A DNA stretch of 40,004 nt from Candidatus Magasanikiibacteriota bacterium. GTDB lineage: Bacteria; Patescibacteriota; Patescibacteriia; Magasanikbacterales; GWA2-37-8. This document shows positions 28,654-40,004 of the stretch, piece by piece. A model generated the notes under the pieces. The model searched no databases, was not told the DNA's origin, and saw nothing but the letters and a program-made list of their open reading frames with translations. The stretch's first letter is position 1; each line of letters opens with the position of its first letter. The stretch spans positions 1-40,004 of the forward strand of contig JAHFHZ010000007.1 of NCBI GenBank assembly GCA_023246715.1, written 5' to 3'. The translations under genes were made by a program, and so were the position numbers.

Positions 28654-29151
28654 ATGCCATCGTCATCACCGCGTAAAATGCCCATGGGCAAAAAAATAGG
28701 GTTGGTTGCCGCCGTTATAATTGGCGGTTTTTTTATTCTTGCGGGCATACACTTTTGCTGGTTGCGTTATGGTAATTGGCGAGCCACTCAAGAATATCTG
28801 CAAGCCGAACAAGAGGCGGAACGACCGTATCGTGAAGACAGGTACGGCGGCCAGACACCCAAAGAAACTTTGGAATTATTTATTGCAGCGGTGGAAAAAA
28901 ATGATTTTGAGCTGGCGAGTAAGTATTTTGTATTGAGCAAGCAGGAGGAGTGGAAAGCTGGGTTACAAAAGGCAAAAGAAAAAAATACCTTAGCTTGGTT
29001 ATTAAATGAGCTAAAAAATAATAATAGAAAATTAAAATACTTTGATCCTACCCCAGAACTCAATGGTAGGAGTATGTACACAATAGGGGGTACAGTTTCC
29101 GTAACTTTTATTAAATACCCTTCAGGTGTTTGGAAAATAGAGGAGATTTAG
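28654..29151 (+). CDS. Signal-anchored protein of unknown function
   Basis: A 165-aa protein with a single N-terminal helix (about 14-36) after a basic start and the remainder predicted outside. TPKETLELFIAAVEKNDFELASKYFV resembles the repeated helix-strand start of NTF2/DUF4878-like domains; the last 20 residues (GGTVSVTFIKYPSGVWKIEEI, shortened here to its pattern) fit the final strand. It starts 100 bases after the promoter and six bases before the large secreted protein, so the two are probably co-transcribed. Function unknown. Confidence 0.65.
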   Translation: MPSSSPRKMPMGKKIGLVAAVIIGGFFILAGIHFCWLRYGNWRATQEYLQAEQEAERPYREDRYGGQTPKETLELFIAAVEKNDFELASKYFVLSKQEEWKAGLQKAKEKNTLAWLLNELKNNNRKLKYFDPTPELNGRSMYTIGGTVSVTFIKYPSGVWKIEEI

Positions 29152-33261: not shown

Positions 33262-33357
33262 CGGCCATACCATTGACAAACGCCAAATTTTATTTTTATA
33301 GCCCCAAGCCTCTTAAAATGGTTTTTGATGCTGGCCTGTCCCGGGTGTTTGAACGGT

Positions 33358-33433
33358 CATAATTTTGCTCAACTAAGCTAAAATTATGCTGTTGTGCATT
33401 ATAATTGTGGCTCTGTCGATTTTGTGCTATAAT
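33358..33433 (+). promoter_or_regulatory. Promoter with an upstream inverted repeat
   Basis: TTGTGG (33405-33410), 17 bases and TATAAT (33428-33433), with an extended TGC. A second TATAAT at 33400-33405 has no clear -35 box. Upstream, CATAATTTT (33358-33366) and AAAATTATG (33380-33388) form an inverted repeat, a candidate operator. A TTGACA at 33273-33278 with TATAGC 18 bases later is a further possible promoter. The rest of 33262-33357 shows no gene. Confidence 0.6.
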
Positions 33434-33453
33434 CGGGTTACAATTTTTGCGTC

Positions 33454-36402
33454 ATGCATTCCTTAGAAGGAGTACAATCGAGCTGGTGGAAACGACTTAA
33501 AAAACCGCCCTTGCACTGGGCCAGTGCCTTGGCGATTTTTGCGTTTCTGGCCGGGGTTTTTTGGATAGGTACCGGCGAGGTTGCGCACGCGGCCGTGATT
33601 GATTATGTGTTCCAGGCGGTGTCGTGGGTGCTGTTGCAGTTGGCGGAATTTTTCTTAAAGATTTCGGTATTTTTGCTCTCGTTTATTATTGAAATTGCCG
33701 GGTATAACGGCTATTTAAACTCCACGCCGGTACAAGTGGGTTGGGTGATGGTGCGCGATATTACCAACATGGGTTTTGTGGTGATATTACTGCTCATCGC
33801 TTTTGGCACCATTTTGGGCATTGAACAATACGAATGGAAAAAAATGTTGGTGAAGTTTGTGTTGGCCGCGATTTTGGTGAACTTCAGCCGCATTATTTGT
33901 GGGGTGTTTATTGATGTGTCACAGGTGGTGATGATTACGTTTGTAAATGGCGTGGCGGCCACCGCCGGCGGCAACCTGATTAACGCCTTTAGTTTGGATA
34001 AATTAATGGGGGTAAACCCCAATGTGCCGGCCGAGGGAATCAGCGGTTCGGGTACATTTATGGCCAGTGTTGGCGCTATTACGTTCGCGGCGATTGTGGC
34101 CGGGCTGATGCTGGTATTCTTTATGATGCTGGCTGCCCGCATGGTGGTGCTTTGGGTATTGATTGTACTATCCCCCTTGGCGTTTGTACTCAGCGTGTTG
34201 CCCCAGACCGAAAAATATGCCAGTGAATGGTGGAGTGAATTTGGCAGCAACCTTATTACGGGCCCTGTTCTGATGTTTTTTATTTGGCTATCTTTTGTTA
34301 CGGTTGGCAGCGGCGCGATCCACGATGAAATTAGCAGCCCGGAAAACAATAGTTCACCCACCATTGCCCAAGGAGCGGCGGATGCCGATCGCATTGGTGG
34401 GCAGCAGGTGGGAATTTCCGAAGTTATGACCTGGCCGAAAATGGCCAATTTTGCCATTGCGGTAGCCATGTTGGCAGTTGGCGCCAAAGCAGCCGCGCAA
34501 ATTGGCGGCGTTGGGGCCAGTTGGGCTGGTAACGCCGTTGATTTTGGCAAGAAAGTGGCGGCGGTGGCCGGTGGCTATACCCTTGGCAAATGGGCCGCTG
34601 GTGGAGTGGCCTCGGGCGCTTCGGCGGTTGGCCGCGGTGCTGGTTGGGCGCTGTACCATGGCAGTGGCTTAGCCAGCCGCGTGCAGCGGGTATCTAACTG
34701 GGCGCAGAATCAGTATCAGGGTTTTGAAGCCTGGCGACACGATACTGGGTTCCGGCCAAAGGTGAGAATGAAAATGGATGAAAAAACCGGCCAAATGGTT
34801 GAAGACCGGGATGAGAAAAACCGCATCCAGTATGAACGTGATTCGCATGGGAATTTAGTTTTGGAAGAAACCAAGCGTAGCGCGATGCAGCGTTGGTTTC
34901 ATGGCCGGGTGGCCCGTGATATTCAGAGCGCCAAGATTTTGGAAAAAACCACTAAATTTGCCGATAATCGCAAGGAATTATTAGATAAGCGTACTACGGC
35001 CGTGCCGAGTTATTTATTGCAACATCCCGATGAGAAAGGCGACGCGATCGACCGTATGGAACGGGGTATGCTTCATGGTGAGGAGCTTCGTTCGGGCGCG
35101 AAAACCAAGGAATACGAAGCGCTTGGTGAAGCTTTGGTTACCCACAGCCGGCGTTATAAGGATGGCAAACTAGAGCAAGATCAAATTATGGCCGATGGCA
35201 CGGTGAAGAAAGCCAAGTCGATTGAGCAGATGATTGTGGATCACGAAATGCGCGCCGAAAATACGCACTTGCATAGCGAGGCCGAAAAAACCAACATGAA
35301 ATCCGACTTCTTGGAAGGTAAAGACGGTCAAAGTTTGATTGCCGGTCAGGCAGCCAGTGACGTGGCGGCCAATGCGTTTGCGGGGATGCGCCAGCAATTA
35401 TTGAGTGACGTGAAAGAAGTGCGTTCGGCTGCGGCTAAAGCGCTTATTGATGCCGAAGTTGCCAAGATTCAGGAAAAGTTAAAAGCCGAGGCGGCTTTGG
35501 AAGAAAAGCGCACTGGCGTGAAAGTGGATAAAAATGTCTTAGAAAATGAAATGGCCGCAGCTTCGGTAGAGAAGGTGGCCGCGGCGGTGAAGGTGCTGGC
35601 GAAAGACAATAAAGAAATTGCTTTGGCCTATACCACCGCGCTTAAAAAGCAAAATACTATTTTGGAAAGCCGTGGCCAAGGTATTTTAGATGATGATGTG
35701 CGCCAGCGGATTATTGGTGAACGCCAAGGGATTCAATTCCCGGCCGAGTCATCGCGTGCCGCGATTGAATCAATGGCCAAGGAACTGGGTAGTAAGGTAG
35801 AAAAAGACCAGATGCTGTCCGCTATGACCGGGCGTATGTTGCAAATTGCCGAAAAACGCCGCGCTAATCGCGAAGACCCCAGCAATAATCCATACAGCGA
35901 AAAAGATCAGCGCATTGACGAAATTTATACTCAGGCGCTGGCTTCCAGAATGCAAAAAGAACGCTGGATTGATGATTTACAGGGTTCCAGTGAAAAAGCG
36001 GTGGCCGAAGGCATGGGTATTTCGGGTGAAGATGCCGCGTATTTGAATAAACTGGTCGAAAACGGTCGCCAAGTTGGGCGTGATAGCAGTGGCGGCGGGA
36101 GTGGTGGTGTGCTAGCTGATTTGAAAAAGGTATTAGGTAACGCTGGTGAACAGCAGCGTAGCTTGGTAGGCGCGTTGAAAAATGCGGCGAAAGCGGCTGG
36201 TATGGATAATTTAACGGCCATGGCCCAGCACGCCTCGCGCCCCGACCAAATGGAAGAATTGATTCGAAAGATTAAAACAATGAATACTGGGGATACAAAT
36301 GGCCGCAGCCATGAAGACATGGTGGCTTTGATTAAAGCTATGGGTGATGGCCATTTCCAGGCCGATCAGGAGTTAAAACAATTGCTGGATAAACATAAAT
36401 AA
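33454..36402 (+). CDS. VirB6/TrbL-like membrane protein with long soluble tail
   Basis: A 982-aa protein. The first 290 residues hold about six membrane helices, with NMGFVVILLLIAFGTILGIEQYEWKK and NFSRIICGVFIDVSQVVMI among the segments that recall VirB6/TrbL-type inner-membrane components of type IV secretion systems. Two further hydrophobic, Gly/Ala-rich segments lie at 325-400. From about 420 to 982 the protein is charged and predicted helical, with many Lys, Glu and Ala and coiled-coil-like stretches. It starts the co-directional run at the window end. The secretion role is inferred; no ATPase is in view. Confidence 0.6.
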   Translation: MHSLEGVQSSWWKRLKKPPLHWASALAIFAFLAGVFWIGTGEVAHAAVIDYVFQAVSWVLLQLAEFFLKISVFLLSFIIEIAGYNGYLNSTPVQVGWVMVRDITNMGFVVILLLIAFGTILGIEQYEWKKMLVKFVLAAILVNFSRIICGVFIDVSQVVMITFVNGVAATAGGNLINAFSLDKLMGVNPNVPAEGISGSGTFMASVGAITFAAIVAGLMLVFFMMLAARMVVLWVLIVLSPLAFVLSVLPQTEKYASEWWSEFGSNLITGPVLMFFIWLSFVTVGSGAIHDEISSPENNSSPTIAQGAADADRIGGQQVGISEVMTWPKMANFAIAVAMLAVGAKAAAQIGGVGASWAGNAVDFGKKVAAVAGGYTLGKWAAGGVASGASAVGRGAGWALYHGSGLASRVQRVSNWAQNQYQGFEAWRHDTGFRPKVRMKMDEKTGQMVEDRDEKNRIQYERDSHGNLVLEETKRSAMQRWFHGRVARDIQSAKILEKTTKFADNRKELLDKRTTAVPSYLLQHPDEKGDAIDRMERGMLHGEELRSGAKTKEYEALGEALVTHSRRYKDGKLEQDQIMADGTVKKAKSIEQMIVDHEMRAENTHLHSEAEKTNMKSDFLEGKDGQSLIAGQAASDVAANAFAGMRQQLLSDVKEVRSAAAKALIDAEVAKIQEKLKAEAALEEKRTGVKVDKNVLENEMAAASVEKVAAAVKVLAKDNKEIALAYTTALKKQNTILESRGQGILDDDVRQRIIGERQGIQFPAESSRAAIESMAKELGSKVEKDQMLSAMTGRMLQIAEKRRANREDPSNNPYSEKDQRIDEIYTQALASRMQKERWIDDLQGSSEKAVAEGMGISGEDAAYLNKLVENGRQVGRDSSGGGSGGVLADLKKVLGNAGEQQRSLVGALKNAAKAAGMDNLTAMAQHASRPDQMEELIRKIKTMNTGDTNGRSHEDMVALIKAMGDGHFQADQELKQLLDKHK

Positions 36403-36426
36403 TTACTAATTTAAGTCCTGCTGCAT

Positions 36427-38622
36427 ATGGCGCATGATCATGGTCACGGGGGGTTGAGACCGGAAACGAGAAAAAAACTTGATGAGTTGGCTAATGATGC
36501 CGCCACAGATTTGGGTAATCGTTTGCGCGGGGAAGCGCCGCCGAAAGCAGCTGTTAAAGAAGCGGCTGGTAGCGGCGGGCATCACGATGAACACGCGAAT
36601 GGACATGATGATCATGATGAGCAGGCTCACGCCGAAGAAGAGCACCACGGCGTTCGTAGTGGAGGTGAACACGGTCGCGCCCGACAACGTGAAAGTTTGG
36701 CTGGGACCATGGCGCGCGCGATAGAGGGCAACGTGACCGGGCTATCACCGGAAGTCGCTGAGCGCCTTCGGCTTGACTTGCTCACGAACTCTACCGCCGA
36801 TTATAGCCGCATCAACCTGACGGAAATTTTTATCGCGTTTAATTTTGACGCTAACCAAACCGCTACCCATTGGCGCCTGGCCAAAATTATGGACGGTATC
36901 GCCATGTGTTCGGGCGAGTTCCATATTTTGGAAGATAATTTGAGCCCTGGAAAAATTCCAGAAAAAATTTACGATGTCATTCGTGCGGGTGATGTTAGTG
37001 AGCCAACTTGGGCCATATCCGTTGCGAATCCAAAAAATCCCGAAGGTGAAAAAGAAAAATTTAAAGCCAGCCTGACTGACTTTGCTTACCTGGTTGATAC
37101 CTTGAAAGCCAACCGCGAATTAGGGCTGTACCGTATCCCAATCAATGAACTGCTTTATAAGTTTTTTAAAGGCGAAGATATTGTCACTCGGCCGATTGTT
37201 GAAAAAAATGAAGCGGGTAAGGTGTTTGGTAAAAAGACCTTAAATTTACGTGGCCAAGCCATCAATCCGCGCGACTCGTATGCTGGCCAGGACGCTATTG
37301 ATATTGAAGCCTATATAAAATACGTGAAAAAATCCCAAACTGGCATGCAGCAGGTTGGTGACTGGCGTTATGATTCCGACAAGCACCGCGAGTTGGCGGC
37401 GCAAACGTATTTGGCCCGCCTGGAAGGCGGTATTTACTGGATTCCTAACTCCGGCCGTTTAGCTGCCGAAGTGAGTAACGAAGATTTGCAAAAAAGTTCG
37501 GCCGATGGCGGTAAGGCGGCTATTAATGGCCAACCCCAGGAAGTCGGTGAAATGGAAGAAAGCCAAACTGGTAACATTGTGCGCTTCCGCATGCGCGATT
37601 TGGTACAGCGTAACGTTGGTGGCACGGTGCAAAGCTTGTCGGGCACCACGCGCCGTATGCACAAAGCGATGATGGGGCTGAACCTAAAAGAAGAAGCGGC
37701 CAAAGTGTTTAGTGAAAAAGTTGATGTTCCGAATCCCGATGGCAGCTCGGAAAAAAAGGAAACAAAGGTAGTGTACCTCTGTGGTAATGATGAACGTGGC
37801 CGATCGGGCGATATTATTAAGGCCATGCACGTGCATTACGATAAAGCCATGAAAAAATCCAGGGGTTTTGGTCTTTCGAATGACGAAGCGTACGATTTGG
37901 CTTTGGTAGATGTGTTTGCGCCTTGTATCTTGAACAACGCCAACGACTGGCTGATTGCTTTGGCAAAAGTATACCCAGATATTGGTGGTGGAAGCGGTGA
38001 GCGCGGCATTGTCCAGAATCCTAATAAGTTTAATTTTCTTTTGAGGATTAAATGTTACGATCCGGAAGAAGATCGGATTCGTTGGCAGGATTTCCATGGT
38101 TTTAACGATCTGCTTAAATATATCCGGGACCGGGTGAAACTTGGCCACATTGATCAGCCGATCGAAGAATCCAGCGGGCAGTTAAAACAGGAAGATGCCC
38201 CGCTTTACGAAGCGGTTGAAAAATTTGAAAATGCTGATCAGGCGAGCAATTATGCCGCGTTAGCCACGGAGCTTCTTGGTGAGTATGCTGGTGAGTATCT
38301 GGCTGATTACGCGAGCGGCAATCGCACGATGTTTAAGTCGGTGCGTACGGCTAATGGGGAACTTATTCCCTTTGATCCGGGACAGAAAAATAAAGTGGAA
38401 GGGCGCACTAAGTTGACTTTCGATCAAATTATCCTTAAAGAAATCCAGACCCTTAAAGACGAAGGCCGGATTGGCGAGATTTTTGATCTCTTGTCTAAAA
38501 TTTATTCGCCAGCTGACGACTTTGATGTGGGTAAAATGGATGAATTACAACCCGCTCTGGACGCATTCGTAAACACTCTGGCTGGTTTGCCGCCCGCTGA
38601 ACGCCAAAAATTAAAAGCTTAA
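36427..38622 (+). CDS. Unknown 731-aa protein with a His-rich start
   Basis: No recognised domain. Residues 1-90 are very rich in His, Asp and Glu (MAHDHGHGG, GHHDEHANGHDDHDEQAHAE and EEEHHG), a composition that could bind Ni, Zn or Cu. The remaining 640 residues look globular and soluble, with no membrane helix or signal peptide. It follows the VirB6-like gene by 24 bases and precedes the 415-aa gene by 15 bases, so it is probably part of the same operon and may form the cytoplasmic part of the machine. Function unknown. Confidence 0.6.
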   Translation: MAHDHGHGGLRPETRKKLDELANDAATDLGNRLRGEAPPKAAVKEAAGSGGHHDEHANGHDDHDEQAHAEEEHHGVRSGGEHGRARQRESLAGTMARAIEGNVTGLSPEVAERLRLDLLTNSTADYSRINLTEIFIAFNFDANQTATHWRLAKIMDGIAMCSGEFHILEDNLSPGKIPEKIYDVIRAGDVSEPTWAISVANPKNPEGEKEKFKASLTDFAYLVDTLKANRELGLYRIPINELLYKFFKGEDIVTRPIVEKNEAGKVFGKKTLNLRGQAINPRDSYAGQDAIDIEAYIKYVKKSQTGMQQVGDWRYDSDKHRELAAQTYLARLEGGIYWIPNSGRLAAEVSNEDLQKSSADGGKAAINGQPQEVGEMEESQTGNIVRFRMRDLVQRNVGGTVQSLSGTTRRMHKAMMGLNLKEEAAKVFSEKVDVPNPDGSSEKKETKVVYLCGNDERGRSGDIIKAMHVHYDKAMKKSRGFGLSNDEAYDLALVDVFAPCILNNANDWLIALAKVYPDIGGGSGERGIVQNPNKFNFLLRIKCYDPEEDRIRWQDFHGFNDLLKYIRDRVKLGHIDQPIEESSGQLKQEDAPLYEAVEKFENADQASNYAALATELLGEYAGEYLADYASGNRTMFKSVRTANGELIPFDPGQKNKVEGRTKLTFDQIILKEIQTLKDEGRIGEIFDLLSKIYSPADDFDVGKMDELQPALDAFVNTLAGLPPAERQKLKA

Positions 38623-38637
38623 TTACGTATTTTAGGT

Positions 38638-39885
38638 ATGGCCGCACACGATTCATTATTCGATGTTCGCCGTTGCCTGCGTCAGGCAGCCAAAACGCCC
38701 GCCGAGGAGCGTGGCTTTGTGGACCGCCTGAATAATCTGAAACTCTTGCCGCTGGAAGAGTTTTTATTGACTCGTTTGTATCAGCCGCGTAGCTCTAGTT
38801 TTGGCATTACGCTCGACCGTTACGAAAAAGTAGTGCCGATGCTCCGCGGCCAGAATGGTACTATCCAGCCCTGGCTGAACGAAGCCGCGTTCAAAGACAT
38901 GTTTCTGACCGAAGAAATGTTGGAAGACCCGGCGTTCATTGCTACGGTTCTGCACTCATTATATGTGTGGCACACGGGCGATTTCCATTTACCGGCCATT
39001 CGTTTTTTGCGGATGCTGGAAACGTTTACCACCGGGGATTTTTTGTTTGATGGTTTGGTGAAAGATGTTGCCTCGTTATACCGCCGGATTAGCTTGTTGA
39101 TTTTTGTTCAATTTTTTGGCGATTTGCCGACACCTTTTCAGCTGTTGTTCGCCAACTCAGCGCTGGTCTTCGGGGCGATTGCCCGCGGGCTTGATGTCGA
39201 TCAGGCTTTTGCCCGGGCCGTACAGTATTCTTTAATGGTAATTAACCGCCGGGAAATGTGTTTGCGCTTGGCGGCTTTTTTATATGAAAACAAAACCCCG
39301 CTTGGCAAGCAGCCCGGGGGTGTCGCGGGAGCAACGATTGCCTTTTGGATTGAACAGTTTGATTTATTCAGCCAGAAGAAGTTTGATGGCATTAGCTTAA
39401 TTAACTTCTTGCAAGATCGTGTCCGCTGGCAGTTTGTGAGTGCCGAGGAAAAATATTTGGTTGAACAGGGAATTACGCTATATGCCCATTTAATTTCCGA
39501 CCATTACGTTTTGCCGGATTTTGAAGGGCCGCTGTCGAGCCGTTCCGCGCCCGCCAGAGTTACTCCGGCTCCTTTGAGTAGCACGCAGGTTTCGGAACCA
39601 AAGAGAGCGGAGGGGCCAGCGTTGGATTGGCAAAAAATTCTGGCTGCTGGTGTTTTGGATGATGCGCTGGCCGCGCAGGTGGCTGTCTGGCTCAAACGCA
39701 ATTCAGCGGAAAGCGCCCGTTCAATGATTTTTTCTGCAGTCAAAGATAAGAAATGGCAAGATGAGCCCTTATTGAACGTATTGCTCGGCATTGATGCTTT
39801 GTTTGAAGACTGCTATGGCCCCGCAATTCAACCGCTTTTGTATTTTGACGAGATCGCCGGCACTTTCGTTTGGAATAAAGTTTGA
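38638..39885 (+). CDS. Unknown 415-aa helical protein
   Basis: No recognised domain. Residues 1-300 appear mainly alpha-helical, with hydrophobic stretches near 170-200 (LLIFVQFFGDLPTPFQLLF) that may be buried helices rather than membrane spans. A Pro/Ser-rich linker (about 295-325) separates a C-terminal helical part (WQKILAAGVLDDALAAQVAVWLK). It is co-directional with the previous two genes and separated by 15 bases. Likely a soluble partner of the VirB6-like protein, but that is an inference from position. Confidence 0.6.
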   Translation: MAAHDSLFDVRRCLRQAAKTPAEERGFVDRLNNLKLLPLEEFLLTRLYQPRSSSFGITLDRYEKVVPMLRGQNGTIQPWLNEAAFKDMFLTEEMLEDPAFIATVLHSLYVWHTGDFHLPAIRFLRMLETFTTGDFLFDGLVKDVASLYRRISLLIFVQFFGDLPTPFQLLFANSALVFGAIARGLDVDQAFARAVQYSLMVINRREMCLRLAAFLYENKTPLGKQPGGVAGATIAFWIEQFDLFSQKKFDGISLINFLQDRVRWQFVSAEEKYLVEQGITLYAHLISDHYVLPDFEGPLSSRSAPARVTPAPLSSTQVSEPKRAEGPALDWQKILAAGVLDDALAAQVAVWLKRNSAESARSMIFSAVKDKKWQDEPLLNVLLGIDALFEDCYGPAIQPLLYFDEIAGTFVWNKV

Positions 39886-39903
39886 TTATTTTAATGGGGG
39901 AGT

Positions 39904-40004
39904 ATGGCCGATCAACCAGCGCAACCAACTATTTTGGTTAAAAAAGCCGATGGCACTAGCAGTCGGATGACCACGGCCGAGTTTAAAGCGTATCGCGCTA
40001 GCTT
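39904..40004 (+). CDS. Start of a gene cut by the window end
   Basis: An ATG at 39904, just after GGGGGAG, opens a frame that runs off the right edge after 33 codons (MADQPAQPTILVKKADGTSS at its start). It lies 18 bases after the previous stop, so it belongs to the same run. Too short to identify. Confidence 0.65.
   Translation, partial: MADQPAQPTILVKKADGTSSRMTTAEFKAYRAS

Follow-up and report, generated by a model that had tools for sequence, protein, structure and literature searches.

The four co-directional genes that close the window, a 40,004-nucleotide stretch of DNA representing the whole of contig C1 in the 1.06-Mb genome assembly of a Candidatus Magasanikiibacteriota bacterium (44 contigs, 92.8% complete), are the upstream half of a T4SS operon truncated by the contig end. 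The first gene encodes a VirB6-like membrane protein, and the second, p731, is, judged by its profile matches, a VirB6 tail module detached as a gene of its own. The third and fourth, p415 and gene4, appear to be the two halves of a single Patescibacteria-specific unit located between VirB6 and VirB3. We consider it likely that the operon belongs to a chromosomal host-contact T4SS of this Magasanikbacteria-type Patescibacterium (class ABY1), with p731, p415 and gene4 as its cytoplasmic base or adaptor.

Results

The operon continues into T4SS genes in a conserved order

The relevant features of the window are the following, with gene starts given by the longest-ORF models.

33262-33453, + strand: intergenic region before virB6, with an inverted repeat and a TATAAT
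33454-36402, + strand: VirB6-like ORF, complete, 982 aa; polytopic membrane protein
36427-38622, + strand: p731 ORF, complete, 731 aa; soluble, putative split-off VirB6 tail
38638-39885, + strand: p415 ORF, complete, 415 aa; soluble, mostly helical, conserved in the T4SS operon
39904-40004, + strand: gene4, ATG at 39904, runs off the contig; soluble 430-aa protein, the rest of which lies on contig C12

As originally described, all four genes lie on the same strand, separated by gaps of 24, 15 and 18 bases, and we regard them as real because homologues of all four occur elsewhere in the same order. C1 ends where the window ends, and the operon is therefore cut by the assembly. The last 21 bases of C1 are identical to the first 21 bases of C12, each copy being found once in its contig, and gene4 continues in frame on C12 to give a protein of 430 aa. 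Such an overlap would be typical of an assembly-graph break, and the C1–C12 join, a bridging by overlap and synteny rather than by read-through, is probably correct.

On C12, gene4 is followed by PrgI, TrsD, VirB4, a one-TM protein (p197) and ComF. The VirB4 (2394-4262 of C12), which was located through an alignment of its relatives, scores 349.5 bits against NF045971, the CD1110 conjugal ATPase family (cut-off 325), and VirB4 was found in 52 of 57 related genomes. PrgI (L017:1230-1655 in the same genome) matches its family profile with E 7e-71; in two related loci, L012 and L016, Pfam recognizes PrgI over the cut-off, together with TraC-N-like, TraG P-loop and phosphoribosyltransferase/ComF domains. 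TrsD, which corresponds to the N-terminal part of VirB4 as a separate protein, matches NF041427 below the curated cut-off (E 3e-9), and its profile matches a Pontibacillus plasmid protein at the same place with E 1e-39. p197, consisting of one TM and a soluble domain, is VirB8/PrgL-like: it aligns with the protein that occupies the place of PrgL (VirB8) in a conjugative plasmid of E. faecalis (L106; E 1e-5, hhalign prob 84), and the Pfam VirB8 profile matches its family weakly, in one member. PDB sequence profiles gave nothing significant for p197.

The order VirB6, (p731), p415 (one or two copies), gene4, PrgI, TrsD, VirB4, p197, ComF is kept in about 40 loci of the taxonomic order, and other classes of the phylum show a shortened version, VirB6-gene4-PrgI-TrsD-VirB4-p197. 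When genome contigs were searched with VirB6, seven of the eight loci retrieved came from Candidatus Magasanikbacteria. The original prediction of a secretion- or conjugation-like machine is thus borne out: the VirB4-type ATPase sought downstream lies on C12, behind PrgI and TrsD, and instead of unrelated genes in no fixed order the continuation carries T4SS genes in a conserved one.

Two peculiarities of VirB4 were seen in relatives. The VirB4 of one genome (G034, L054:9429-13259) is broken near Walker A by an intein with a LAGLIDADG domain, and two others (G029, contig C8, and G044, contig C12) have an additional, distantly related VirB4 in frames of 805 aa, which possibly belongs to a mobile element.

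The first gene encodes a VirB6-like protein

The 982-aa protein has about eight hydrophobic segments, the last reaching residue ~348, with a membrane core at ~50-390, followed by a soluble tail of ~560-580 residues (~420-982); the membrane protein with a soluble tail of ~560 residues that had been predicted is therefore observed. The NCBIfam profile NF046089 (Gram-positive VirB6-like) matches this gene alone in the genome (E=1e-5) and the gene at the same place in about 20 relatives, all below the curated cut-off and over VirB6 positions ~300-385. The membrane core is common to about 40 neighbours of VirB4. Neither Pfam, TrbL included, nor PDB profiles matched the protein, and direct comparisons with single Gram-positive VirB6 candidates were not significant. 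Position, membrane pattern and the sub-threshold NF046089 match together make its assignment as VirB6, as first suspected, well supported, though not formally over threshold. Family members that carry the soluble tail range from 982 to 1928 aa, their terminal module being either fused or separate, and some VirB6 proteins have neither a tail nor a p731 alongside.

p731 is a probable free VirB6 tail

The His-rich start remarked upon in the 731-aa protein is private to this sequence: it is present here and missing from the homologues in L012 and L013. A three-row profile built from standalone p731 proteins matched, in the genome searches, inside frames of 1450-1691 aa with E 1e-12 to 3e-21, and in one genome (G042) the match lies at the end of its VirB6 (L037). 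In an iterated search of about 900 neighbouring proteins with filters off, everything recruited besides p731 itself was a VirB6 tail, save one partial protein encoded where VirB6 usually lies. These tails are missed under HMMER default filters and appear once the filters are off; the genome searches found them independently. Because iteration can drift, profiles were also compared with each other: separate p731 proteins against whole VirB6 tails gave prob 97.8 and E 1.2e-12 over 330 columns, the tails in this comparison being those recruited by the iterated profile, so that the unaided evidence consists of the frame matches and the filters-off search. The control, VirB6 tails that do not carry the module, gave nothing against p731. 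In the window, the VirB6 tail corresponds by alignment to the section of the long tails ahead of the module, and the standalone relatives of p731 adjoin VirB6.

On these alignments, p731 and the C-terminal tails of long VirB6 proteins are homologous, so that the tail occurs in two forms, joined to the membrane protein or as a soluble protein by itself. On the VirB4 tree, genomes in which p731 is fused, separate or absent are intermingled, which lends no support to a single fission event and implies repeated splits or fusions. Since some VirB6 proteins lack both tail and p731, p731 is not universally needed. We saw no membrane segment in p731 and no match to a Pfam, NCBIfam or PDB sequence family. 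Its AlphaFold model is poor (pLDDT 42), and a PDB fold search returned no match below E 0.4.

p415 and gene4 appear to form a unit between VirB6 and VirB3

The p415 family comprises 53 profile members, a few loci being counted twice. In one locus from the same taxonomic order (L054) and in four from other classes (L070, L071, L072 and L074), p415 and gene4 are fused, the N-terminal half of the fusion protein being p415-like and the C-terminal half gene4-like, with no overlap. In the other classes the gene4 family is found between VirB6 and PrgI. The gene4 protein starts with an N-terminal PTILVKKADGT motif and continues with Pro-rich linkers, a middle domain of ~65 aa and a conserved C-terminal domain. 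These fusions and positions suggest that p415 and gene4 are two halves of one unit specific to Patescibacteria.

No Pfam, NCBIfam or PDB relative was found for either protein, nor any relation by sequence between p415 and p731 or gene4, and a search of four plasmid T4SS loci from Gram-positive bacteria gave no homologue of p731, p415 or gene4. gene4 is free of membrane segments, and none is seen consistently in p415. AlphaFold predicts p415 as helical at low confidence (pLDDT 52), again with no PDB fold match below E 0.4. The initial impression that the soluble proteins fall outside recognized families consequently holds as far as Pfam, NCBIfam and PDB sequence families go, but has to be amended for p731, a detached VirB6 tail. 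Of the profile searches and structure predictions then recommended, the former placed p731, whereas AlphaFold on p415 and p731 was poor and PDB profiles gave nothing significant. The literature and libraries searched, including the main text of PMC12102498, contain no description of p731, p415 or gene4, and the free VirB6-tail gene and the p415-gene4 unit seem to have no published description there.

ABC ATPases in L076, L078, L079 and L080 carry up to three copies of the gene4 middle domain in their C-terminal tails; these ATPases adjoin a MacB/FtsX-like permease and a surface protein of ~2000 aa with a conserved C-terminus. The domain may therefore serve export machines of the phylum more generally, as a cytosolic docking element.

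The region upstream of virB6

The promoter with an operator-like repeat that had been read into the intergenic region survives in part. A perfect 9-bp inverted repeat, CATAATTTT-N13-AAAATTATG, is present with arms at 33358-33366 and 33380-33388, and a TATAAT with TG in front lies at 33428-33433. However, a sigma-70 scan found no full promoter on the + strand of this region, and arms of at least this length appeared in 11 of 300 random sequences of similar composition, making the repeat only mildly unusual. We regard both elements as weak candidates for a promoter and operator of virB6.

Further upstream, many relatives encode directly 5' of virB6 a secreted Cys-rich protein of 2500-3300 aa (L012:395-8803 and its equivalents). 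This family was found in 56 of the 57 genomes of the order, the window's own genome alone being without it; a different protein of 1367 aa, with an LTD domain, takes its place. Just upstream of the latter, the gene at 28654-29151 encodes a protein of 165 aa that weakly matches DUF4878 (NTF2-like).

Other T4SS-related genes of the genome

The genome has 14 VirB2-like pilin matches, all on other contigs than the operon, and two TraG-D_C coupling-protein matches, on C14 and C31; no VirD4 coupling protein stands beside the transfer genes in the operon. PF03432, the one relaxase family searched, has no match in this genome at its 92.8% completeness and none over the cut-off in 24 genomes.

Positions 3569-10336 of contig C25 (L110) hold a row of seven or more small genes for pilin-like proteins with two or three TM and PF18895 matches. 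Elsewhere we observed tandem genes for proteins of ~690 and ~3000-3900 aa, each starting with a VirB2-type pilin domain (signal peptide, two TM), in L111 (1522-3582 and 3579-14360), L112 and L114, and in the window's own genome in L109 (3065-5110 and 5135-7993, where the contig ends). The giant protein of L111 contains Ig-like and Laminin-G/concanavalin-like lectin domains, and these tandem products are candidate pilin-anchored giant adhesins.

Discussion

From these results, we propose a model in which VirB6 would serve as the membrane channel element, while the genes on the next contig would supply PrgI (VirB3), the motor (TrsD and VirB4) and the VirB8/PrgL-like protein. The VirB6 tail or p731, together with p415-gene4, would sit on the cytoplasmic face as a base or adaptor that joins the channel to the VirB4 motor, and could assemble pilin, admit substrates, or both. 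A cytoplasmic location of p731, p415 and gene4 is the most likely one because they have no signal peptide or membrane segment, and we infer complex formation of p415 and gene4 from the fusions and the gene order. As the AlphaFold models are poor and the fold searches empty, the adaptor role is put forward without structural support. The machine would probably serve host-cell contact rather than conjugation: no PF03432 relaxase was found, the coupling and pilin genes lie on other contigs, and the T4SS of S. epibionticum is essential for growth on its host, as reviewed in PMC12857230; we therefore propose a host-contact T4SS. A further idea, tentative and somewhat doubtful, is that an additional module, cytoplasmic or exported and peculiar to the T4SS of Patescibacteria (VirB6 tail/p731 with p415-gene4), adapts a DNA-transfer machine to host feeding or handling. 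If so, Gram-positive conjugation systems would be without such a module, and the free p731 would be a natural experiment on the role of the extended VirB6 tail.

The main rival to an adaptor is that the VirB6 tail or p731 is cargo, cleaved or separately encoded, which is exported via the T4SS into the host cell. p731 is free, soluble and encoded directly after VirB6, and like many effectors it varies and is missing in many relatives; moreover, both surface exposure and export as cargo have been proposed or reported for the extended VirB6 tails of Anaplasma (PMC7648143). We nevertheless consider this reading improbable: many lineages retain the module as part of the channel protein, neither a signal nor an effector domain was found in p731, and its neighbours p415 and gene4 are conserved subunits, so that its position suggests machinery.

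A competence-like T4SS for DNA uptake, comparable to Helicobacter ComB and with ComF as its cytosolic partner, would agree with the comF gene that directly follows in most loci of the order, with the comF, recG and radA genes reported near T4SS genes in ABY1 in the text of PMC12102498, and with the lack of a PF03432 match. Outside the order, however, loci that keep the T4SS core and gene4 seldom showed a comF alongside, and S. epibionticum can do without comEC but not without the T4SS, according to the review PMC12857230; DNA uptake is linked there to type IV pili. Such a function is quite unlikely. An integrative conjugative element with its conjugation apparatus would account for the match of VirB4 to the CD1110 family of Gram-positive conjugative elements, but the same operon recurs in 52 of 57 related genomes, the coupling-protein genes are on other contigs, no integrase- or replication-like gene lies within the operon, and the genome has no PF03432 relaxase; vertical, order-wide conservation largely refutes this very improbable reading. 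A secretion machine unrelated to T4SS, to which the soluble proteins with no relatives in Pfam, NCBIfam or PDB might have pointed, is refuted by the PrgI, TrsD and VirB4 genes that continue the operon on C12 and by the relatives, and is scarcely credible.

The T4SS that we favour is, in its core, a known one, and the suspicion that the operon might be "undescribed" is accordingly not supported. An MPF-FATA-like T4SS of Patescibacteria, in ABY1 often near comF, is described in the text of PMC12102498, and the machine, which had been considered as possibly "of its own type", instead relates to this monoderm class, with its VirB4 over the CD1110 cut-off. Both here and in the described systems, including that of Southlakia epibionticum (PMC12857230), VirB6 (here the VirB6-like protein), PrgI/VirB3, TrsD and VirB4 share one chromosomal locus, a VirB2-like pilin array and VirD4-like genes lie elsewhere, no relaxase was found and, in ABY1, comF is nearby; the published accounts for the phylum likewise place coupling-protein and pilin genes away from the T4SS locus. 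The phylum survey in PMC12102498 lists few VirB8 proteins, nearly all in ABY1. In contrast, p731, p415, gene4, a separate VirB6 tail and p415-gene4 fusions go unmentioned in the published main text.

The architecture of a membrane core with a very large hydrophilic C-terminal domain is shared with the extended VirB6 of Rickettsiales (PMC7648143) and with TraG-like proteins, a likeness of architecture; here, the terminal module is a separate gene in several genomes. A 2025 review (PMC12857230) states that it has yet to be learned what extended VirB6 domains do, and the T4SS is reported to be essential for the epibiotic growth of a cultured Patescibacterium. Concrete handles on this machine come from the unit that is conserved, without annotation, between VirB6 and VirB3, and from the naturally detached VirB6 tail, a soluble piece suited to purification and to assays of binding to VirB4 or pilin, or of transfer to the host.

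With the Gram-positive MPF-FATA plasmids of E. faecalis (L106), Lactococcus (L105) and Pontibacillus (L104), the operon has the PrgI-VirB4 order in common, and PrgL resembles p197. Those loci contain no homologue of p731, p415 or gene4 and, in addition to the machine itself and unlike the present operon, L105 and L106 have genes for VirD4 and a cell-wall hydrolase next to it, L105 also one for a relaxase. As here, L104 and L107 encode VirB4 in two pieces, one TrsD-like and one the ATPase (VirB4 of L104, E 1e-137; its TrsD as given above). L104, a Bacillota plasmid with pilin-like, PrgI-like, TrsD-like and VirB4 genes, was the best match among 945 plasmid records and, with the same split arrangement, may hint at where the Patescibacterial T4SS came from.
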